Part shown: piece by piece, positions 1,787 through 11,391 of the stretch
Numbering within the stretch: the stretch's first letter is position 1
How the letters are laid out: every line of letters begins with the position of its first letter
DNA from: an uncultured Ilumatobacter sp.
GTDB lineage: Bacteria; Actinomycetota; Acidimicrobiia; Acidimicrobiales; Ilumatobacteraceae
DNA: 64,000 nt
Direction of reading: 5' to 3'
Assembly (NCBI GenBank): GCA_937919625.1
Contig: CALFRK010000001.1
Span: forward strand, 1-64,000
Position numbers and translations under genes: made by a program
The notes under the pieces: model-generated
The model's input: the letters and a program-made list of their open reading frames with translations, nothing else
Databases searched by the model: none
What the model was told of the DNA's origin: nothing

Positions 1787-2089
1787 GGTTTGTCTCCCAG
1801 TTGGTGCTCTGGGGCCAGCGTAGTCGAGGTGTCCTGCCGTGCTCACACGGCGATCCCGCGTTCTGCGGAAGGGCCGACGGGCGGAAGGGCGGACTCCGAG
1901 ATATCGGCATCGCGGACGGGAGTGGCCGCAACGCAACAATCGCCGTCGCAATGGGATAAGACCATCACACCACGCGACTCATGCCAGGTGACACGAAAGA
2001 ACTCATCGGATCAGGGTGCCTGCGGCACGAGGATGCGATGCCGTTCACCTTCTCCGTGCTATCCCACAACACAATTAGCCGCCTTCTGA
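1787..2089. other. Intergenic region, no gene seen
   Basis: About 300 bases between the MetE-like start and the transposase remnant. It must hold the MetE-like promoter. I found no convincing ORF, RNA or long repeat. In-frame transposase-like coding begins right after a TGA at 2087. Confidence 0.4.
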
Positions 2090-3337
2090 GACCGCAAGGT
2101 CTATGCGTCGGCTCGCAAGGTCGAAGCCGAACTCGGCCATCCCCTGGTGTGGGGTCGGATCCGCAAGATCGTTCGCGAGCGGTTCCCTACCGAACCTGAT
2201 CGTTGGCTGCCTGAGATGTCGATGCGACGCCACCACTACCTGTACGGGCGCACCACGTATCTCACCCAGCCAGAGGTCCTCGAACGTTTGCGGGCGGTCC
2301 ACCGCCAACACGCTGCGGCGCAGGCGAAGCGGATCGGCCTGCTCAACCCGGCTGGTGGCGGGTCGTGGACCCACCCTGATCTGGATCGGGTGGTGCATGC
2401 TGACGGCAAGGTGATCACGCCGCTGTTCCGGGCACGACCCGGCGACAAGATCATCAACAAACACACCGGTGAGATCCGTTACCCGCGCGCCGACACCGAC
2501 GCCGCCCTCCATGTCGAAGGAACCGGTGAAATGGTGTGGGGCTGCAAATACGTGATCATCGCCGCCCGCGGTCAACACCCCAACGCCCGGATCATCCTCG
2601 ACGCCGGCCACGTCGACCACCCCGGCGGCGAAGCAGCCCAAGCCGTCACCATGTTCACCGCCCTCGCACCAGAAATACCCGGCGCCCAAGCAGTCATCTA
2701 CGACGGCGCCCTGCGCGGTGTTCACCACCAAACGTTCCTGCGCGACCTTGGAATACTCACCGTCAGCCGGGTCGCCGCCGCCCGTCGGATCCACAACAAG
2801 AACAGCAAAGCCGTCAAACGTGTCGACAAGATCGTCTACGTCGAAACCAAACGCATCACGACCCCGACCGGAACCGTCGATCTGAAGTTGTTCTCGCGAG
2901 GCGGCCAACTCGGTGTCGGTGAACTCACCGACACCGGCGAGATCGCCTTCATCGCGCTCGAGCGGGTCCGAACCCACCGCGCCCAATCCAAAGCCGGCAC
3001 CTACCGCTGGTACAACGACCACCGCCTCCCCACCGAACACGGCGGAGGGATGATCACCGTGCGCCTCCACGCCAACACCGACGACACCAAACGCAAATTC
3101 AACCGAACCGAGAACGTTCGGCCGATCCCACCCGACGACCCCGACTTCGACCGCCTCTACGCCCGTCGCAACGACGCCGAAAGCATCAACCGCCACCTCG
3201 ACGACACCCTCTGGCTGCGACGCGCCCACAGCATCGGGCAACACCGCCAAACCCTCAACCTGCTCACCTACGCCCTGTGCGTCAACGGGCTGGCACTCCA
3301 CCTGCACCGGCGACGACAACACGCAACCGCCGCGTAA
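2090..3337 (+). pseudogene. 5'-truncated DDE transposase
   Basis: The reading frame runs from just after a TGA (2087-2089) to TAA at 3337. Its first usable start (GTG 2147) lies inside protein-like sequence, since about 19 upstream in-frame residues (DRKVYASARKVEAE...) also look coding. That suggests the true N-terminus is lost. A DDE arrangement is visible: DGKVI near residue 86, VIYDGALRG near 185 and a late AESINRHLD near 345, followed by LTYALCVNGLALH as in IS4/IS1182-type enzymes. No terminal inverted repeats could be assigned by eye. It lies just upstream of the tRNA-Thr integration site. I am confident of the transposase class and less so of the IS family. Confidence 0.6.
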
Positions 3338-3532
3338 CACGACCAGCATCAACACCGCCCACCAGGCGGAACAACCGCGGGTCGGCACCGATCCGTCGGG
3401 CAACCACCGTCGAAATCCGCCGACTCAGACCTCGAACCGGGTCGGCGCGACCGTTCCGCAGCGATACGCTTCAGCCGCCATAACCGTTCGACCAGCCCCC
3501 GGGGGTTTTCTCCCAGGTTTTCGACCGGTCCC

Positions 3533-3605
3533 GCCCAGATAGCTCAGTCGGTAGAGCAACGCACTCGTAATGCGTAGGTCAGGAGTTCAATTCTCCTTCT
3601 GGGCT
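3533..3605 (+). tRNA. tRNA-Thr (anticodon CGT)
   Basis: A full cloverleaf is visible: acceptor GCCCAGA/TCTGGGC, D arm GCTC-GAGC, anticodon stem ACGCA/TGCGT with loop CTCGTAA (anticodon CGT), and T arm AGGAG/CTCCT with loop TTCAATT. The discriminator base is T and the CCA end is not encoded. Its 3' part is duplicated at 6603-6658. Confidence 0.93.
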
Positions 3606-3617
3606 CTGAGAAACACC
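3562..3617 (+). repeat. attL-like direct repeat (tRNA-Thr 3' end)
   Basis: These 56 bases, from the anticodon stem through the tRNA 3' end plus 12 downstream bases, recur at 6603-6658 with one mismatch (T3568 versus C6609, within the anticodon). Duplication of a tRNA 3' end is the usual footprint of tyrosine-recombinase integration. Confidence 0.85.
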
Positions 3618-3662
3618 AGGTAGATCGGAGTCTTTCGAGAGTGGCTGCGAATTCAAGGAACT

Positions 3663-3695
3663 CCAACCAAGCAGCTAACCAAGAATTTGGTTAGC
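3663..3695. repeat. CCAAG-box cluster, left end of element
   Basis: Contains CCAACCAAG, TAACCAAGAAT and the inverse TTGGTTAG within 33 bp, 46 bp inside the left att copy. Similar clusters lie at 6477-6515 and 8510-8546. They could be integrase arm-type binding sites; this is inference from position and sequence. Confidence 0.4.
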
Positions 3696-3753
3696 GATTG
3701 CGGGCATGAAGGGCTCATTGCGTGAGCGCCATCCCGGCACGGGCAGAAGAGGT

Positions 3754-4091
3754 CTACCCAGCCTGGTGGTCGTCCAGGATCGCCTGAAGTTGGACTCGAA
3801 CGGCAGGGATGTCGCGCTCCACGACGTTGCCGATGATGTCCTGATCGACGTGGAAATAGGCGTGGGCGAGGATCACCCGAGTTCCGATGATCTCGCGCCA
3901 CGGAACTTCTGGATGGGCCGACCGAACTTCGTCAGACAGATGCGACGCCGCCTCGCCGAGCATTTCTAGCCACCGTTGGGCAGCCGCTTGGACGAGGGAT
4001 CGGGGGCGAGCACGGACTGGTCGGACGCGTGTGCGAGCAGCAGGTCGCACATCTCCAACATGTCGAGGAGTCGCTCCTCGTCGTTCCTCAC
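3754..4091 (-). pseudogene. HepT-like HEPN toxin, frameshifted
   Basis: The N-terminus ([19 protein letters not shown]) reads from GTG 4091, which overlaps the mntA stop as GTGA. The rest (LEMLGEAASHLSDEV to LDDHQAG) reads in another frame to TAG at 3754. The span is not a multiple of three, and the shift falls near a CCCCC run around 4000-4015. The HEPN RNase motif is intact in the second part: R-V-I-L-A-H-A-Y, i.e. Rx4HxY. In HepT-MntA systems HepT is the RNase toxin and MntA the AMPylating antitoxin. The toxin is probably dead here, unless the shift is a sequencing error. Confidence 0.6.
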
Positions 4092-4384
4092 AGCTCGACG
4101 GCGTCACTCAGCACGCGTTGGGAAACACGAGAGCGCAGACCCGCCTCAGTGACGACATCAACGGAATGTCCGAGGAGATCCTGAAGGTCCATCAGCAAAC
4201 CCCCGAGGTCGAACAATCCGCGTTCCTCGTCGAGGTCGACGAGGAAATCGATGTCGCTGGTGTCGGTGGCATCACCGCGAGCGACTGATCCGAAAACTCG
4301 GACTCGACTCGCACCGCGTGCGTGCGCCATTTGGAGGATCTCGCTGCGGCGCTCACGCAGATCGGCCAGCACCGGCACGCTCAT
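4088..4384 (-). CDS. MntA-like minimal nucleotidyltransferase antitoxin
   Basis: A 98-residue protein of the MNT family. The nucleotidyltransferase signature is complete: GSVARGDAT followed by SDIDFLVD (GSx10DxD) near residues 32-50. MntA AMPylates and neutralises HepT. The ATG at 4384 overlaps the stop of the preceding ORF (ATGA), and its own stop overlaps the hepT GTG, so the genes are translationally coupled. The antitoxin is intact although the toxin is not. Confidence 0.75.
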
Positions 4385-4656
4385 TCTGCCCAGGATATAG
4401 CCATCGCCGACACGAGGAACGAGCGGATCGGTTCTCTCCGGCCCGCACAAGGGATCGCCAACTGCGACACTGGACCGACTCCATGTCGTGCGGGCTCGGC
4501 TGGCGCGCCACCTTTCACCACGCCGGCCGGCAGCATCTGACCGACGATCGTGTGCGCCACTGTGCGCCGGAGTCTCGGCTCGGCTATGCCGAGTTCGCCG
4601 GCAAGATTGCGCAGCCGCGCTGCCAGAGTTCGTTGCTTCGCCGGCGGTTCCCTCAT
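4381..4656 (-). pseudogene. AbiEii-like toxin N-terminal fragment
   Basis: 91 residues. The first 50 resemble the start of AbiEii/AbiGii nucleotidyltransferase toxins: a helical [11 protein letters not shown] segment, then LPAGVVKGG, the VxKGG strand that opens the fold. The following sequence ([11 protein letters not shown]...) does not continue the family and the catalytic Asp region is missing, so the gene looks truncated or shifted. The start overlaps the stop of the upstream short ORF (ATGA) and the end overlaps the mntA ATG. AbiEii assignment is from a short stretch and remains tentative. Confidence 0.4.
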
Positions 4657-4781
4657 CGGGCGGCCCCGATCTCCTCGATGAGACGCGCATGGTCTCGGCG
4701 GCAGATCAGTCCCTCGTCACGAGCACGACCATCGGCATCGGCATCGGCATCGGCATCGGCATCGGCGAGTCGGTCGCCCAT
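4653..4781 (-). CDS. Short ORF (42 aa) with Ala-Asp repeats, possible antitoxin remnant
   Basis: Reads from ATG 4781 to TGA 4653 and overlaps the AbiEii-like ATG by 4 nt. Residues 6-17 are an (Ala-Asp)n tract encoded by the hexanucleotide repeat at 4731-4766. The end ([12 protein letters not shown]) is protein-like. In position it corresponds to the antitoxin of an AbiE-type pair, but it is far too short for AbiEi. It may be a remnant or a chance frame. Confidence 0.3.
4731..4766. repeat. Hexanucleotide tandem repeat (ATCGGC)6
   Basis: Six uninterrupted copies of ATCGGC. As a multiple of three it would change length without shifting frame in the minus-strand ORF, where it encodes Ala-Asp. 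Confidence 0.9.
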
Positions 4782-4918
4782 CACCGTGCACGTGTGATCC
4801 TGAGGTCATCCGCGAGGGCTTCGGGGGACGCCATGCCGGACCCAGATCCACGCAAAGTGGATTCAGTGGCACGGAACCGGATCGGCTTTTCACGGAGTCG
4901 GCACCATCGCGAGTTCTC

Positions 4919-5010
4919 GCAATCTGTAGCTCAGCAGGGTTGCAACATGCATTCTGCATAGTCTGCAATGTGTAGCCTGAGGTGGCTGCAACCTGTAGGC
5001 TTGTGTGATG
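4919..5010 (+). promoter_or_regulatory. Four 23-bp direct repeats upstream of the ATPase gene
   Basis: Units begin at 4919, 4942, 4965 and 4988, exactly 23 bp apart. Each starts GCAA and shares TG at positions 7-8 and A at position 10; three of four contain TGTAG. The last unit ends on the ATG. The period is close to two helical turns, so a protein could bind along one face. This looks like an operator array or iterons. The gene has no obvious Shine-Dalgarno, and the array leaves room for a leaderless transcript. Confidence 0.6.
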
Positions 5011-6264
5011 GTCGTCTACCGCTCCCGCGTCATCGATTCCGTGTTGGCTGACCGTCTTGCGTCCGCCGGCGCGGTGCTGGTCGAAGGTCCGAAGGCATGC
5101 GGGAAGACATTCACCGCCGAACAGCAGGCCGCCAGTCGCGTCTACCTCGACACCGACGATCAGGCACGCGCCGCCCTCGGCGTGGACCCGACGCTCGTGC
5201 TGTCCGGTAACCCACCACAGCTCATCGACGAGTGGCAGCTCGACGCCACCAGGGTGTGGAACCACGTTCGCGCCGAGGTTGACCGTCGCCAAGGCAGCGG
5301 GCTGTACATCCTCACCGGTTCCGCCACGCCGCCCAACGACGCCCGGCGTCACAGCGGCGCCGGGCGCTTCGCCCGACTGACGATGCGACCGATGAGCCTC
5401 TTCGAGTCGGGCGACTCGACCGGTGAGATGTCGTTGGCGGCGCTACTTGACGGACACCGGCCGACCGCAAAGTCGACCGAGATGACCGTGCCCCGCTACG
5501 CCGAACTGGTCGTTCGTGGTGGTTGGCCGCTGAACCTCACGAGAACGGTCGCCGCTGCGGCGCGAGCGAACATCGACTACGTCACCACGATCACCGATGT
5601 GGACCTGCCCACGATCGACCCGGCCCGGCGGCATCCCAGGCTGGCCCTGCGGGTCCTGCAAGCGCTCGCCCGCAATATCGGGATGGACTATGTCGTCACC
5701 CGCGTCGCGCAGGACGCGAGCACCGACGACTCTGACATCGCACGATCGACGGTCTACGACTACCTGGCACCCCTCGAGCGCCTGATGATGCTCGACCCAC
5801 TCGAGGCATGGTCATCACATCTGCGTTCCCGGGCCCGTCTGCGCAACTCGCCACGGGTGCAGTTCTGCGATCCATCCGTTGCCGTTGCTGCACTACGCGC
5901 CGGAGCGGGCCAACTGCTCGCCGACCTGAACTACTTCGGGCACCTGTTCGAAGCGCTCGTCGTGCGTGACCTACGAGTGTTCGCCGACGCGGTGGACGGC
6001 ACCGTGCAGCACTACCGGGACTCCGACGACCTGGAGATCGACGCGGTCGTCACCGCCGGCGACGGACGCTGGGCGGCATTCGAGGTGAAGCTCGGCCAGG
6101 ACGACATCGACATGGCTGCTGCCAACCTGCTCGCCTTCTGCGGCAAGGTGGACACCACCAAGATCGGCGAACCGGCGACGCTCGCAGTGATCACCGCCAC
6201 CGGATACGGCTACACCCGCCCTGACGGCGTCGTTGTCCTGCCTGCCGCCACCCTCGGCCCCTGA
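5008..6264 (+). CDS. AAA-family ATPase with C-terminal DUF4143
   Basis: A 418-residue cytoplasmic ATPase of the AAA_14/DUF4143 type. The Walker A is intact (EGPKACGKT, about residue 27), a Walker B-like LIDEWQ sits near 75, and a sensor-like ILTGSA near 112. The C-terminal region ends with a PD-(D/E)xK-like strand pair, EIDAVV and AAFEVKLG (about 345-370). Such proteins are common in mobile and toxin-antitoxin neighbourhoods, but their role is poorly known. The start is ATG 5008 (GTG 5005 directly before it). It is the only full-length large gene in the tRNA-Thr element. A truncated relative lies at 7746. Confidence 0.8.
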   Translation: MVVYRSRVIDSVLADRLASAGAVLVEGPKACGKTFTAEQQAASRVYLDTDDQARAALGVDPTLVLSGNPPQLIDEWQLDATRVWNHVRAEVDRRQGSGLYILTGSATPPNDARRHSGAGRFARLTMRPMSLFESGDSTGEMSLAALLDGHRPTAKSTEMTVPRYAELVVRGGWPLNLTRTVAAAARANIDYVTTITDVDLPTIDPARRHPRLALRVLQALARNIGMDYVVTRVAQDASTDDSDIARSTVYDYLAPLERLMMLDPLEAWSSHLRSRARLRNSPRVQFCDPSVAVAALRAGAGQLLADLNYFGHLFEALVVRDLRVFADAVDGTVQHYRDSDDLEIDAVVTAGDGRWAAFEVKLGQDDIDMAAANLLAFCGKVDTTKIGEPATLAVITATGYGYTRPDGVVVLPAATLGP

Positions 6265-6602
6265 TCATCGCACCCGCCGACCGGCTACACATCCATCGAG
6301 AACCGACCGGCACCGAGTGCCCGAATCGCCAGAACATGCCCTTGACCGCGATCACACGTATAACGCCGGTTCACGGACACGTATCGACCGCTGCCGACGG
6401 CACCCCGGATCCGAGGGCTGATCGGGCGCCACGGATCGGCCGGATTACACGACCTCGCAGTTACGTCGACCGGTCGCCAACCAAGAATCCAACCAAGAAA
6501 TCCGCTTGGTTGGGGCGGAAACGGCGGGACTCGGCGGAACGCCGCCCTCGCGAAATACCAGCTAGATGGCCCTCTCAAGGACTCAACGGAACGCTCAGAT
6601 CT
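6265..6602. other. Non-coding right end of the tRNA-Thr element
   Basis: Between the ATPase stop and the right att repeat. It holds the CCAAG cluster at 6477-6515 (two AACCAAGAA boxes and an inverse CTTGGTTGG). I saw no convincing ORF. Confidence 0.45.
6477..6515. repeat. CCAAG-box cluster, right end of element
   Basis: Two CCAACCAAG-type boxes 12 bp apart and one inverse copy, about 90 bp inside the right att copy, matching the cluster inside the left end. Confidence 0.4.
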
Positions 6603-6658
6603 CACTCGCAATGCGTAGGTCAGGAGTTCAATTCTCCTTCTGGGCTCTGAGAAACACC
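6603..6658 (+). repeat. attR-like direct repeat (partial tRNA-Thr copy)
   Basis: 55 of 56 bases match 3562-3617. Only the tRNA 3' portion is present, so this is not a functional tRNA. Confidence 0.85.
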
Positions 6659-6659
6659 G

Positions 6660-7060
6660 TCCCGGGGTCTGGGAGCTGGTCGTGCAGCTCCCCCGCGATG
6701 CCACGTCCGCCCGAGCGAGCGAGGCAGCTCAGTCGTACCTTTCACGGCACCAAACGGGAGGCACTGCGCGCCCTCGCGGCACCCGTCACCGAGGTGTCAG
6801 CTGGAAAGATCACGTCGTCGATGACCACACTGCGCGAGCTGTTGGCTCGATGGCTTGACCATGTTGCCTATCAGTTGTCCCCGACGACGGTCCGGGAGTA
6901 TCGGCGCTTCGTGTCGAAGATGATCGAGCCCGCTCTCGGCAAGCTCACCCTGCGACGCGTCACAACACAGCGTCTCGACGCGTACTACGCGAGCCTCAGC
7001 CGGGAGCGCGGTGCGCCCTCGGCTGCAGTGACACTCGAGAAGAGCCGTCAACGCATGTTG
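6660..7060 (+). pseudogene. Tyrosine recombinase (integrase) N-terminal remnant
   Basis: Begins right at the end of the right att repeat. One frame reads VWELVVQLPRD (6665-6700), typical of the N-terminal beta strands. A second frame then gives RPPERARQLSRTFHGTKREA, LRELLARWLDHV, LSPTTVREYRRF and LGKLTLRRVTTQRLDAYY, which is the SAM-like core-binding domain of phage integrases. At least one frameshift (about 6695) and loss of the whole catalytic domain make it non-functional. Its place next to att identifies the class of enzyme that made the duplication. Confidence 0.7.
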
Positions 7061-7140
7061 ACGATACTATCGAAGCGACGTAGGCTTGGTTCGTTGACAT
7101 CGAGGCGGGCGCCCGCAAGCACGGTGTCTCTGATGACGAC

Positions 7141-7329
7141 ATGCTGCATGCACTCAGACACCACTGGCGAGCGTTCGAGACAGCTGATCCCTGCGTCACG
7201 ATGTTCGTCGGACCGGCCCGCAACGCTCGGCCGCTCGAAGTCGGGGTGGTCAGTGACGACGAGGACGTCACGATCATTCATGCAATGCAGGCACGATCCA
7301 AGTTCCTGAAAGGCTGGTGGGCACCATGA
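7141..7329 (+). CDS. Small toxin-like protein, probably 5'-truncated
   Basis: 62 residues from ATG 7141 (MLHALRHHWRAFE ... LEVGVVSDDED ... KFLKGWWAP). It resembles a widespread actinobacterial small protein encoded upstream of an HTH partner, with the look of a toxin-antitoxin pair. In-frame residues before the ATG (AWFVDIEAGARKHGVSDDD) also read like family sequence, but a TAG at about 7080 removes any earlier start. The stop overlaps the next gene as ATGA. Family and function are inferred from memory of similar pairs. Confidence 0.45.
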   Translation: MLHALRHHWRAFETADPCVTMFVGPARNARPLEVGVVSDDEDVTIIHAMQARSKFLKGWWAP

Positions 7330-7582
7330 CCACGACACGGACACAACGAGCCGAGGCGCTCGAGCGTTGGGCCGACGATGTCGATGCCGATGATCTCGTC
7401 GAGGCGAATACTGCCGCGCTCCGCACGATTGCCAAGTTGATCGAGCAACGAGACGACGTCAATACAGCGCTACTGGACGCGATTCGTGATGCGCGGCGGG
7501 CAGATCGGTCGTGGTCGGAGCGATGCTGGGTGTCTCGAAGCAGGCCGCCCAACGCAAATACGCCGCCAGAATCTCGGCATAG
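7326..7582 (+). pseudogene. HTH antitoxin-like protein, frameshifted
   Basis: ATG 7326 starts MTTTRTQRAEALERWADDV and runs to DRSWSE. At about 7517 the frame breaks; the next frame continues AMLGVSKQAAQRKYAARISA to TAG 7582, a recognisable HTH end (S-W-S-E, L-G-V-S-K-Q-A-A-Q-R). Two to four bases seem to be missing at the break. It is coupled by ATGA overlap to the toxin-like gene. Confidence 0.55.
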
Positions 7583-7745
7583 CGCCAGTCGCTGAGCCGG
7601 CGGCAACAGAGCACAGCGCAACCGACCGGTCGACCGACCACGAGGTCGTCCGCGTCCGAGACTGAGGCAGATCCGCAGCAGATACTCGGCATTTTTCGAT
7701 TAGTAGTCCGGCATATTCTCATTAGCCGGCCTGGCCTGAGCGTCG

Positions 7746-8471
7746 ATGGACATCGCTCGACACCTGACTGAGCCGGCCGAAGAGCTGCTCGGAGACTTTC
7801 GAGCGGTCGTCATCAATGGCCCTCGCCAGTCCGGCGAGAGCACACTCGTCGAGCAGGTACAGCGGGGTCGCGGGCCGGTGATCACGCTGGACGAGCCCGG
7901 CGCGATGGAAGCCGCGCTGAGTGATCCAGTTGGGTTCCTGGACGGTCAACCCGAGCAAGTCGCGATCGACGAGTTCCAGCGCGGCGGGAACGGATTGCTG
8001 CTCGCACTCAAGGCCCAACTCGACCGATCCGACGATCGCGGGCAGTACCTGCTTGCGGGCTCGACACGGTTCCTTTCGACTCGAACACTCTCGGAAACGC
8101 TGACGGGGCGAGTCGGGCTGACTGAACTCCTGCCGGTCTCGATGGGAGAGCGGGTCGGCGTGCACGAGACCTTCCTCGACGGCCTGTTCAATGCCGAGCT
8201 ACCACCCACGCCGACCACACCGCTCAGCCGGGCCGACTATGCGGAGCTGATCGCTCAAGGCGGGTTTCCCGAAATGCTGCTCGGTCCGACCACGCGCCGG
8301 TTCCGCGCTACCTGGTGTGAGTCGTACCTGCGCACCGTGACCGCTCTCGCCAACGTCGAGCAGGCCGCCGAGATCCGGCGCCCCGAACTCGTCGCACAGC
8401 TCCTCGATCAGGTCGCTGTCCGGTCGGGCGGCGAGATCGTCGCCGCACCCATTGCGACGCTGTGGGGATGA
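7746..8471 (+). pseudogene. Truncated AAA_14/DUF4143 ATPase with mutated Walker A
   Basis: 241 residues against about 420 for the family. The Walker A reads GPRQSGEST: Glu replaces the invariant Lys, which should abolish nucleotide binding. The Walker B-like AIDEFQ and the LLAGSTRFL sensor are present, then the protein ends soon after VAVRSGGEIVAAPI. The DUF4143 C-terminus is lost near 8460. It is related to, but not a recent copy of, the intact gene at 5008. Confidence 0.65.
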
Positions 8472-8509
8472 GTACAGGCACCTCGACGTCCTCCAGAATG
8501 GCCGCCACC

Positions 8510-8546
8510 ATCCAAGATTTCATCCAAGAAACAACGTGATACTTGG
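8510..8546. repeat. Third CCAAG-box cluster
   Basis: ATCCAAGATTTCATCCAAGA plus an inverse ACTTGG, at the point where the truncated ATPase ends and the sigma-factor remnant begins. It may mark the far end of a second integrated element. Confidence 0.3.
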
Positions 8547-8635
8547 CAATACGAGCCAACACGACGACCCGGGTCGGTCGGCCGGGAAACGTAGTGTTCG
8601 TGAACTGCCCACTCAGTACCCAGCTCGAACTTTCT

Positions 8636-8959
8636 TTGTCCGGCGCCCGACACAAGCTGGTCGACCACTATCGCAGCAACGCTCGCGAGCAACGGCGTTT
8701 GGCTCTGGCGTGGTCGAGCGGGGTCGGGCGCGACGACGAGACGGTCGACGACCTGGTCGATGTCGATCCAGGCCATCTCAACGAGCTGCTGCGTGATCTC
8801 TCGGCCGATCACCGCATGGTGCTCGTGCTGAAGTGCCTCGACGAGTCGTCGGTCGATCGAATCGCCGGTGAGATCGGGCGTTCTGTACACGCAATCGAAT
8901 CGTTGCTGGCCCGCGCCAGGCAAGCGCTCGCCCAAAGTCATAAGGAGAGGCAGCCATGA
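8636..8959 (+). pseudogene. ECF sigma factor, 5'-truncated
   Basis: In-frame sequence from about ARHKLVDHYRSNAREQRRLA to the stop at 8959 matches the end of sigma region 2 and all of region 4 (LRDLSADHRMVLVLK, HTH IAGEIGRSVHAIESLLARARQAL). Region 2 with the -10 recognition helix is gone, so it cannot act as a sigma factor. The stop overlaps the next gene as ATGA. The junction with foreign sequence lies near 8600-8640. Confidence 0.6.
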
Positions 8960-9590
8960 CCCGGCACCCGCTCTACGACGCGTTCGATCGCGTCGATCCC
9001 GAGCCGTCCGCCGCGTTCCGCGACGACCTGCGAGCGCGACTGCTCGACGAGTTTGTTGCATCCGATGTAGCACCTGATTCAGCAGCCAGCGACGCAGGCA
9101 CGGATGACGGGGACCAACGCACCGACCCGACCCACGACGTGCGCGTGCTCGGCGATACCGATCACGGCCGCCAGGGTGGGCCTCGATACAGGATCATGTT
9201 GGCGGCCGCCGCGGCAACGATCGTCATTGTCGGAGCCGGGGCGCTGTTGCTCGAGCGCAGCGGTGGACCCGACAAGGTCACCACGGTCCCGACGTCAGAG
9301 ACAATTCCATCGACGTCTGCCCCGACCACCACGGCGCCCACGCCAACAACGACGGAGCCGTCCGAGACGGCGCCAGCGGCGCTGCCCGTGACGGTCCCGG
9401 CGGTCGATGACGCGGCGCTCGTCGCCGATGCACTGGTCGAGACGAAGGAGATCGGCGCCGGTACGAACATCGCCGCCTTGTCGATGACGACGCTCGGTCG
9501 GCCCGACAACTGGGCGCTCCTGCACGCGATGTGGGCGGCCGAGCCGGCGTGCGCCGAGCACACGGCCACTCGAACTGGAACCCCTTCAGC
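8956..9590 (+). pseudogene. Membrane-anchored protein after sigma factor, 3'-truncated
   Basis: Starts MTRHPLYDAFDRVDPEPSAA, a soluble N-terminal part, then one membrane segment (about residues 77-99, IMLAAAAATIVIVGAGALLL) and a Thr/Pro-rich outer linker. Its place after the sigma remnant suggests an anti-sigma or co-transcribed sensor. After about ACAEHTATRTGTPS the sequence stops resembling protein; the open frame continues only as the antisense of the MttB gene, so the real 3' end has been lost near 9590. Confidence 0.5.
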
Positions 9591-9789
9591 ATTTAGACCA
9601 AGCGCCGGGCCGAGGTGGGCGGGAGGCTTACAAACCGCCAGCGGCCTTCTGGCATTACGAAAGCACGGTCATAGACCGCCGCGCGGTGTGCAACTAGGGC
9701 GTCCTCCATCACGGCTTCGGTTCGGCCGGGTCGTGCGTTGGTCACCTGGCACGACGCGATCCGCGATCCCGGCACGACACGCCGACCGC

Positions 9790-11391
9790 TCAGACGGCGA
9801 TCGACTCCACCGGAATCGTTGCGACCGGGGCGGCCCTGGAAATCATCCGATCACGCGGGAAACTGATCGGCAGTTCGGCCCGGATCGCGGCGTCGACATC
9901 CTCAGGAATGTGATCGGGGAAGTGGCGGTCGAGCACGTCGCGAACCTTGGCGATCGCTTGGTCGACGATCATCGGACGGCCGACCTCGTTCCATTCTTTC
10001 GGGCTCAGTCGGTCGCCGATCGCGGGATAGATGTATTCGGTCTGCATCAGCTCGAGTGTCTGGGGCGAGCCGAGATAGTGACCGGGGCCGCCGATTACCG
10101 CGCTGCGGATCGTGTCGAGCGAGAGCGTCTCGTCGGAGACCTCGATGCCCTTGATGGTGCGCTGTACGGCGCCAATGATGTCGTTGTCGAGCACCACGCC
10201 CTCGAGCGAAAACCCGAGCAGGCTGCCGTGCATCCCGGCCGCCTCGTAGATCAGGTTGGCGCCGGCGTTGCCGACGAGCGCGTGGTTGTAGCCCTTCTCG
10301 GCGCCGGCCTGCGCATCGGGCATTTTCGAATCGCTGATGCCCGACGATGTGCCTCCGGTGAGATCGTAAAAGTGGGCCATCTGACCACACGCCGCTGACA
10401 GCAGCGCCTGCTCAGGGCTGCCCCCCGACATCGCCCCCGAACGCAGATCCGACACGAACGGCCAGAGTCCGAAGATCGCCGGATGGCCCGGCTTGATGGC
10501 GTTCACATACGCCAGTCCGGCGAGCACCTCGGCGACCTCCTGCACGAGCGCCCCTGCCAGCGCCGCCGGCGCGGTGGCGCCAGCCTGGCCGGCCGACAAC
10601 AACAAGACGGGCATCCCGCCGTGTACAGCCATCTCCAGGCAGCGACATGCGTCGGCGGCGAACTTGAGCGGGGGAACCACGAAGCAGTTCGACTGGCTGA
10701 CGAACGGACGCGCCCGCCATTGCTGCTCGCCGCCGGCGATCTGGTGCAGCATCTTGAGCGACGCCTCCAGGTGATCAGGGTGCACCCACGAGGTGCCGAC
10801 GTGCTTCGTCGTTCCGCTCACACTGAGGTAGCAGGTGTTGATGTCCATCTCGGCCGGGTCAGGGAGATCCCGCGGCACCACGGCGCGCTGGTAGAAGTGG
10901 ATGTGCTCCATCGTGTCGACCAGGCGGGCGATGTCGTAGGCGTCCTGTGACAGCGACTCGCGATACTCACCCGTGATCGGATCGATGATGTACACAGCCG
11001 CCCCAGCGGTTCCGAAGTAGACCTTCTTGCCCCACGGCTCCATGTCGTGCTTGGGATCCTGACCGTGCAGGACGAAGTTGCGTCCGGCCATGGCGACGGT
11101 GTCCTCGATCAGACCGCGGGGGAACAACAGGCGGCCTTCGTCGGAGATCGTGCAGCCCTTCGGCAGGAGCACGTCGAGGCACGACGGGATCGCGTCAGCG
11201 AGTCCGATGTTCTCGAGGACGTCGAGCGCGGCCAGGTGAACCTTCATCACCTCGGCATCGGTCAGCGCCGCATAGCGCCCGCTGACCATGCCGGGGTTGA
11301 CCGGGCGGACATCGAGCGCCAATGGCGCGGCGCGCAGCGCGCGCCTCGCCTCGCGTCCGCCACGTCGCCCAGCCTGTTGAGCATCGCTCAT
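9790..11391 (-). CDS. MttB-family (non-pyrrolysine) corrinoid methyltransferase
   Basis: 533 residues of the trimethylamine methyltransferase family (COG5598). The frame has no in-frame TAG, so it belongs to the pyrrolysine-free branch, which includes glycine betaine:corrinoid methyltransferases (MtgB). Family-like segments include GTSWVHPDHLEASLKML, NAIKPGHPAIFGLWPF and SDSKMPDAQAGAEKGYNH. It should demethylate a quaternary amine and pass the methyl group to a corrinoid protein, but no corrinoid protein gene is present in the window. I chose ATG 11391 because AGGGGGA lies 7 nt upstream. It is transcribed divergently from a LysR gene, which is its likely regulator. Confidence 0.85.
   Translation of the reverse strand: MSDAQQAGRRGGREARRALRAAPLALDVRPVNPGMVSGRYAALTDAEVMKVHLAALDVLENIGLADAIPSCLDVLLPKGCTISDEGRLLFPRGLIEDTVAMAGRNFVLHGQDPKHDMEPWGKKVYFGTAGAAVYIIDPITGEYRESLSQDAYDIARLVDTMEHIHFYQRAVVPRDLPDPAEMDINTCYLSVSGTTKHVGTSWVHPDHLEASLKMLHQIAGGEQQWRARPFVSQSNCFVVPPLKFAADACRCLEMAVHGGMPVLLLSAGQAGATAPAALAGALVQEVAEVLAGLAYVNAIKPGHPAIFGLWPFVSDLRSGAMSGGSPEQALLSAACGQMAHFYDLTGGTSSGISDSKMPDAQAGAEKGYNHALVGNAGANLIYEAAGMHGSLLGFSLEGVVLDNDIIGAVQRTIKGIEVSDETLSLDTIRSAVIGGPGHYLGSPQTLELMQTEYIYPAIGDRLSPKEWNEVGRPMIVDQAIAKVRDVLDRHFPDHIPEDVDAAIRAELPISFPRDRMISRAAPVATIPVESIAV

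Follow-up and report, generated by a model that had tools for sequence, protein, structure and literature searches.

In the 64,000-nt stretch of DNA analyzed here (the window), four direct repeats of exactly 23 bp run into the start codon of a gene for a predicted ATPase-nuclease, and arrays with the same step but other letters stand before most sampled relatives of that gene. We propose that the array is a private operator, which the encoded protein would bind and through which it would control, and most probably repress, its own promoter; from comparison of sequences we give this reading a probability of roughly 0.7. The protein family, known as the candidate antiphage gene PDC-S01, and autoregulation by tandem operators as a kind are both already known. 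What is new is the step common to most sampled members with letters private to each, together with a second class of arrays whose step is about one helical turn longer.

The window array consists of four units:

4919-4941, forward strand: array unit 1, beginning GCAATCTGTAG...
4942-4964, forward strand: array unit 2, degenerate, beginning GCAACATGCAT...; DNA homology with locus L034 starts here
4965-4987, forward strand: array unit 3, beginning GCAATGTGTAGCCT...
4988-5010, forward strand: array unit 4, beginning GCAACCTGTAGGCT...; its 3' end is the start codon

In order, the full units read GCAATCTGTAGCTCAGCAGGGTT, GCAACATGCATTCTGCATAGTCT, GCAATGTGTAGCCTGAGGTGGCT and GCAACCTGTAGGCTTGTGTGATG. 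The preliminary description had claimed four exact-period 23-bp repeats ending on the ATPase start codon, all opening with GCAA and sharing a TGTAG-like core. The period and the GCAA opening (4/4 units) were borne out, as was the end point, the fourth unit terminating on the ATG at 5008-5010 with an in-frame GTG at 5005; the core stands in three of the four units, the second having TGCAT instead. Comparison of the four units gives 74 matching letter pairs out of 138, where the window average is 37.0 (sd 5.5), and the period-23 score is the best of 63,908 positions, attained only at 4916-4920. Periods of 15, 18, 27 and 36 reach higher match fractions elsewhere in the window, mostly in low-complexity runs. 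None of 200 dinucleotide shuffles equalled the array's lag-23 score of 12. A repeat-family search of the window took three of the four copies into its main family, and Tandem Repeats Finder, run on the window with a minimum score of 30, did not list the array at 4919-5010. Our strict lag-calling rule likewise returned no call at 23 for this array, because of a hexanucleotide run nearby:

4730-4766: perfect run of CATCGG, 6.2 copies

The array was given the label 23 by hand in later counts. It is degenerate, and alone it is significant but modest; it is the relatives that make it convincing. Coincidence as its source was ruled out by the rank of the period-23 score together with the arrays of relatives. 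A CRISPR array was also considered and rejected, as such arrays have identical repeats with unrelated spacers of about 30 bp between them, and the window units are 23 bp long, degenerate and head to tail.

The gene behind the array and the parts of its product are as follows:

5008-6264, forward strand: intact AAA_14/DUF4143 gene, 418 aa, matching PADLOC PDC-S01
5086-5109, forward strand: Walker A motif GPKACGKT, residues 27-34; G27, G32 and K33 invariant in 75 sequences
5215-5238, forward strand: Walker B region PQLIDEWQ, residues 70-77; D74 and E75 invariant in 75 sequences
5623-5862, forward strand: predicted winged helix-turn-helix, residues 206-285, with helices at 210-222, 230-237 and 246-258; site of the covariation peak
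5863-6261, forward strand: PD-(D/E)XK nuclease-fold domain, residues 286-418, with E343, D345, E359 and K361

The protein scores above the Pfam cut-offs for both AAA_14 (33.6 bits; cut-off 27) and DUF4143 (102.2 bits; cut-off 28.1), a family that we take to be COG1373, and matches the PADLOC PDC-S01 model PDLC04790 at an E-value of 2.8e-62, a model given without a curated cut-off. NCBIfam returned no match, and a sequence search of the PDB no relative. An AlphaFold2 model of the protein (pLDDT 93.1) has helices at 210-222, 230-237 and 246-258, which may form a winged helix and are the part that we propose as reader of the array; the equivalent part of a Thermus relative is matched by Pfam HTH models. 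The nearest fold to residues 1-298 of the model is the archaeal ATPase 2qen (Z 15.1, rmsd 4.4 over 255 residues), followed by 2fna (Z 13.6) and NLR proteins (Z about 12); these are likenesses of fold only, by which the ATPase part appears STAND-like. It counts against our explanation that the winged helix of STAND proteins is often an internal regulatory domain rather than a reader of DNA. The C-terminus was folded and searched alone, because the whole-model fold search covered mainly residues 1-330. Residues 286-418 matched McrC (7vsr; Z 9.8, rmsd 3.6 over 127 residues) with the PD-(D/E)XK core fold, then Can2 (Z 8.2), Card1, restriction enzymes and NucC (7.8 to 6.2), where a Z under 8 may reflect merely a common arrangement; Foldseek gave no E-value under 0.001 for this domain. 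The residues of a PD-(D/E)XK nuclease are in place, with E343, E359 and K361 invariant and D345 kept in at least 90% of 75 sequences.

Several other features lie near the gene:

3533-3606: tRNA-Thr
3754-4690, reverse strand: HepT-like/nucleotidyltransferase pair adjoining the array, probably a toxin-antitoxin module
6566-7309, forward strand: ORF with a phage integrase N-terminal SAM-like domain
7746-8471, forward strand: second PDC-S01-like ORF, 241 aa, matching AAA_14 only, with no DUF4143 match

The integrase-like ORF and the tRNA-Thr are possibly the remains of a mobile element. Before the second PDC-S01-like ORF there is a weak 22-lag pair at 7687-7725, and 11 of 1000 shuffles scored as high at lags 22-24.

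Arrays of this kind were looked for before homologous genes and were found before most of them. From whole genomes, genome contigs, and plasmid and phage records we collected 193 loci, of which 17 were left out (fragments, loci truncated by the end of a contig, copies that overlap and motif matches) and 176 kept. In a non-redundant set of 98 loci with mutual identity under 70%, the window's own included, the best repeat lag in the 240 bp before the matched protein was 23 in 73 and 46 in 8; the others were best at 22 (5), 24 (2), 44 (2) or some other lag (8). The strict rule applied to all 176 loci called 129 at 23, four at 22, two at 24 and one at 16, leaving 40 uncalled, some of them with weak arrays visible by eye (two boxes in L062) and some without. 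A first pass, which lacked minus-strand loci, had given lag 23 in 31 of 34, and in the same loci there was no lag-23 peak 600-400 bp upstream, inside the gene or downstream. By the number of boxes implied, 46 of 73 arrays have three, 12 have four, 10 have two and 5 have more, with a median length of 65 bp. By record label, which can be wrong for MAGs, arrays are present in Actinomycetota, Bacillota, Bacteroidota, Spirochaetota, Fusobacteriota, Chlorobiota, Pseudomonadota and archaeal Thermoplasmatota. The MAG records L035, L036 and L039, all titled Bifidobacterium breve, hold close relatives of the window protein, and that organism label looks doubtful. The closest relative found, L034/L005, has 89% protein identity to the window protein; compared with window positions 2001-10000, L034 has DNA homology solely at 4942-6273 (84.9%), so that array units and gene are shared and the flanks are not.

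As a further control, we examined the regions before neighboring ORFs of 200 aa or more within those loci, a set of 184 that includes redundant loci and is built on ORFs rather than annotated genes. Nine were themselves DUF4143 relatives (six at lag 23, two at lag 33, one uncalled). Nine of the other 175 also had lag 23, and were set aside because each shares its intergenic region with a DUF4143 gene of the opposite strand. In the remaining neighbor promoter regions lag 23 was found in 0 of 166, with scattered other lags in nine. These counts bear on neutral slippage, by which the arrays would be functionless tandem duplications of promoter DNA. Near-identical unit copies in some arrays (L085, L168) are what slippage would leave, but many other arrays are degenerate and keep the exact step, unrelated letters share that step, and neighboring promoters lack it; we find a neutral origin scarcely credible.

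Relatives also occur on mobile DNA, in 169 of 72,556 plasmid records and 4 of 50,697 phage or viral records, and among six held-out viral-contig loci (five distinct) the best lag was 23 in five and 46 in L194, where 23 came second. Iterons are usually 17-22 bp long, and a similar unit length together with this plasmid and viral occurrence speaks for replication or partition iterons of a mobile element, which the preliminary description had entertained. Against that possibility, arrays stand in promoter-like positions, the contigs that bear the genes behind them reach 1.5 Mb, and an unsystematic look noticed no replication gene beside the window gene. The iteron reading of the window array finds no support here, and we regard it as highly improbable.

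The spacing of the arrays follows the protein family. A held-out profile search of seven genomes gave 59 places, 30 of which were taken as loci; their best lag was 23 in 10, 46 in 4, 32 or 33 in 8, and another value in 8. Six of the 30 were already in our set, all at 23 or 46, and the 24 new ones divided equally, with eight at 23 or 46, eight at 32-33 and eight at neither. In one of the last (L206) the ORF had been wrongly chosen, and it was left out, leaving 23 new loci in the tree: six called at 23, eight at 32-33 and nine uncalled, the uncalled including L224, in which a lag-23 array is nonetheless visible. The loci with a 32-33 bp step (L204, L208, L209, L214, L219, L225, L227 and L228, that of L214 being weak) form a second array class, some members of which keep the same core (GAAAAGTGTA in L219, GTAAAAAGTGTAA in L209); 33 and 23 bp differ by about one helical turn. 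In a tree of 123 proteins, a single change among the labelled rows separates the 22-24 class from the 32-33 class, where the tree (LG+G4, quick search) came with a warning of long branches meeting in the 32-33 group. The 22-bp class needed three changes on the protein tree, against 6.8 in shuffles, none of 500 being as low. Array spacing is thus a clade trait, of 22-24 bp or, in another subfamily, 32-33 bp.

Not every member has an array. Loci L200-L203 and L207, which group as a clade (support 98), have no detectable one, though they are strong PDC-S01 matches, and none was detectable before the PDC-S01 member at L230:14854-16074. The Gemmatimonadota loci L040/L041 have no clear array, and Thermus thermophilus HB27 TT_RS11170, probably TT_P0211, has none before the gene. 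The preliminary description, which had staked its case on homologous loci having a 23-bp periodicity, is therefore not overturned, but in some subfamilies the spacing differs or no array is detectable. Six loci (L062, L064, L067, L077, L082 and L100) have tandem DUF4143 genes, in which the upstream gene is similar to L046 and L098 and is preceded by a lag-23 array, and the downstream gene has only two boxes.

As far as promoters can be recognized by their letters, the arrays lie over the core promoters of their own genes, as expected of operators. In the window the overlapping element is:

4996-5001, forward strand: TAGGCT, a putative -10 hexamer read from sequence

This hexamer would place the start of transcription on A5008 of the ATG, giving a leaderless transcript. 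A TANNNT hexamer lies in the array 6-8 nt before the ATG in the window and in L002, L020, L024, L026 and L031, which suggests leaderless transcription; a consensus promoter scan of the window found no sigma-70 site. Of the Bacillota-rich loci L043-L113 the set contains 70, and in these a TTGAAA-like hexamer of the last unit can serve as a -35 box. Such an array-borne -35-like box is found in 57 of the 70, and the best spacer to a -10-like hexamer is 17 nt in 41 of these 57, ties counted. A -35 hexamer and a 17-nt spacer together make up the step of 23, and the arrays in Bacillota may therefore have originated by duplication of the promoter; this does not apply to the window, where the putative -10 lies inside a unit. 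The part of the promoter on which the box falls thus varies between lineages, and this speaks against repeats that are nothing but promoter elements.

These positions also weigh on a different role for the array, as an assembly platform on which the ATPase-nuclease would polymerize and thereby be switched on, stored or licensed, with effects on transcription secondary or positive. The STAND-like ATPase fold would suit this role, joined as it is to a nuclease-fold domain in which the key acidic residues and the lysine vary little or not at all, and the rigid step within each clade suggests protein-protein contacts. MalT-type STAND proteins bind arrays of boxes. STAND proteins such as MalT are moreover reported to act after multimerizing (PMC5760070). 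In many Bacillota-rich loci and in the window, however, the last box lies on the -35 or the -10 itself, which suits occlusion over activation, and we consider a platform of this sort unlikely.

Although the step is fixed, the letters of the units are not. Close relatives agree in their unit letters and distant ones do not (Mantel r 0.45 over 74 arrays; 0 of 2000 permutations as high). We compared array resemblance with protein resemblance across 133 arrays, limiting the comparison to pairs at 42-92% identity (2200 of 8778) and controlling for overall identity. Resemblance between arrays is best explained by residues 196-295, with a mean partial r of 0.115 against -0.022 elsewhere, an effect that is small and from which shared ancestry is not fully removable. 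In bootstraps, winged-helix windows stood above those outside in 200/200 and the top window lay inside in 166/200. When the second array was reverse-complemented, the values fell to 0.013 inside and -0.013 outside, and one of 80 circular shifts, the unshifted one counted, was as high. N-terminal residues 1-35 were also above average.

We also searched for the units away from their genes. In the window's own genome, the window motif pair (up to three mismatches) has five matches, all before its two DUF4143 genes, which carry different units; a reversed control pattern also has five, so the number of matches alone is no evidence. A Bacillota motif pair (up to one mismatch) gave eight matches in five other genomes, against none for its control; in three of these it occurs only at the gene's own array, and it is absent from the other two, whose units differ. 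In viral contigs the window motif pair has four matches, of which three were inspected, two of these being the same sequence, and none was tied to a DUF4143 gene; a search of plasmid records with the window array found nothing. A single shared host factor was ruled out, since units differ between paralogues of one genome. More generally, some other host regulator might bind the arrays and control the gene, and in favor of this, it is from covariation that we deduce binding by the gene's own product. Yet units differ between same-genome paralogues (e.g., L001 and L002), they covary with the gene's own winged helix, and the motif pair was found solely before DUF4143 genes in the genomes searched, a combination that a single host factor would hardly give. 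Control by such a regulator therefore seems very unlikely.

Autoregulation through the array, which the preliminary description had put forward as a possibility, is the reading best supported by the recurrence of the array, its covariation with the winged helix, the distribution of spacing on the tree and the conservation of array and gene as one block, from which we infer binding and repression. In the mechanism that we favor, the winged helix of the encoded ATPase-nuclease would bind the boxes of the array, presumably with one protomer, or one unit of an oligomer, on each box, arranged head to tail at the fixed 23-bp step. Assembly on the array would cover the core promoter, and the protein would thereby control, most probably repress, its own transcription; the position of the boxes on promoter elements makes repression the likelier sign. 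In a defense role, loss or recruitment of the protein might then derepress the gene. For TT_P0211 of Thermus, a member without an array, a 6.6-fold rise in RNA is reported with plasmid DNA in the presence of Argonaute (PMC4406477), which hints weakly at inducibility in the family at large. It is tempting, if doubtful, to extend the proposal to all array-bearing subfamilies: each ATPase-nuclease would read its own ladder of boxes at the step of its subfamily, and the ladder would be a scaffold holding a silent oligomer until phage DNA or proteins remove it, such that derepression and release of the nuclease are one event and paralogues are insulated from one another.

Several known systems resemble this arrangement in part. 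PDC-S01 is of the same family, an ATPase fused to a PD-(D/E)XK domain, and was ranked the fourth most common defense across all prokaryotes, with 29,494 in sampled Bacteria and 9,986 in Archaea (PMC12988326). Experimental validation is pending for most PDCs; the available text of that survey covers the protein and its distribution, mentions no upstream array and gives no mechanism for PDC-S01 (PMC12988326). Nor did the accessible portions of the open-access literature yield a description of upstream repeats in the DUF4143/COG1373/PDC-S01 family. MalT-like STAND regulators, including IniR, are STAND-type ATPases that control a promoter and form multimers, as proposed here, but in IniR a MalT-like middle domain is combined with a LuxR-like DNA-binding domain at the C-terminus, and its target is iniBAC (PMC5760070), whereas in the window family the array stands before the gene itself and a nuclease-fold domain occupies the C-terminus. 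RptR represses through three direct repeats in its own promoter in a defense context, but is a homodimeric repressor with 9-bp repeats and one conserved site (PMC12255303). The window family, by contrast, is a predicted ATPase-nuclease and combines a fixed step with free letters. Iteron-binding plasmid initiators, which are often autoregulatory, have tandem direct repeats near the initiator gene. They differ from the present family, in which unit letters are private to each gene and the step is common to large parts of the family, and no replication role was seen. Orc1/Cdc6 and ORC also combine an ATPase with a winged helix, and origin-bound Cdc6/Orc1 (2qby) was among our PDB matches, but with low TM-scores (0.21-0.27).

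An array in cis that names the likely binding site of each protein offers a handle by which binding, specificity, stoichiometry and regulation could be studied together. Pairs of protein and array, being many and divergent, would constitute a natural set of orthogonal regulator-operator pairs, and the two spacing classes, of 23 and of 32-33 bp, provide a test of how STAND-like ATPases assemble on DNA.
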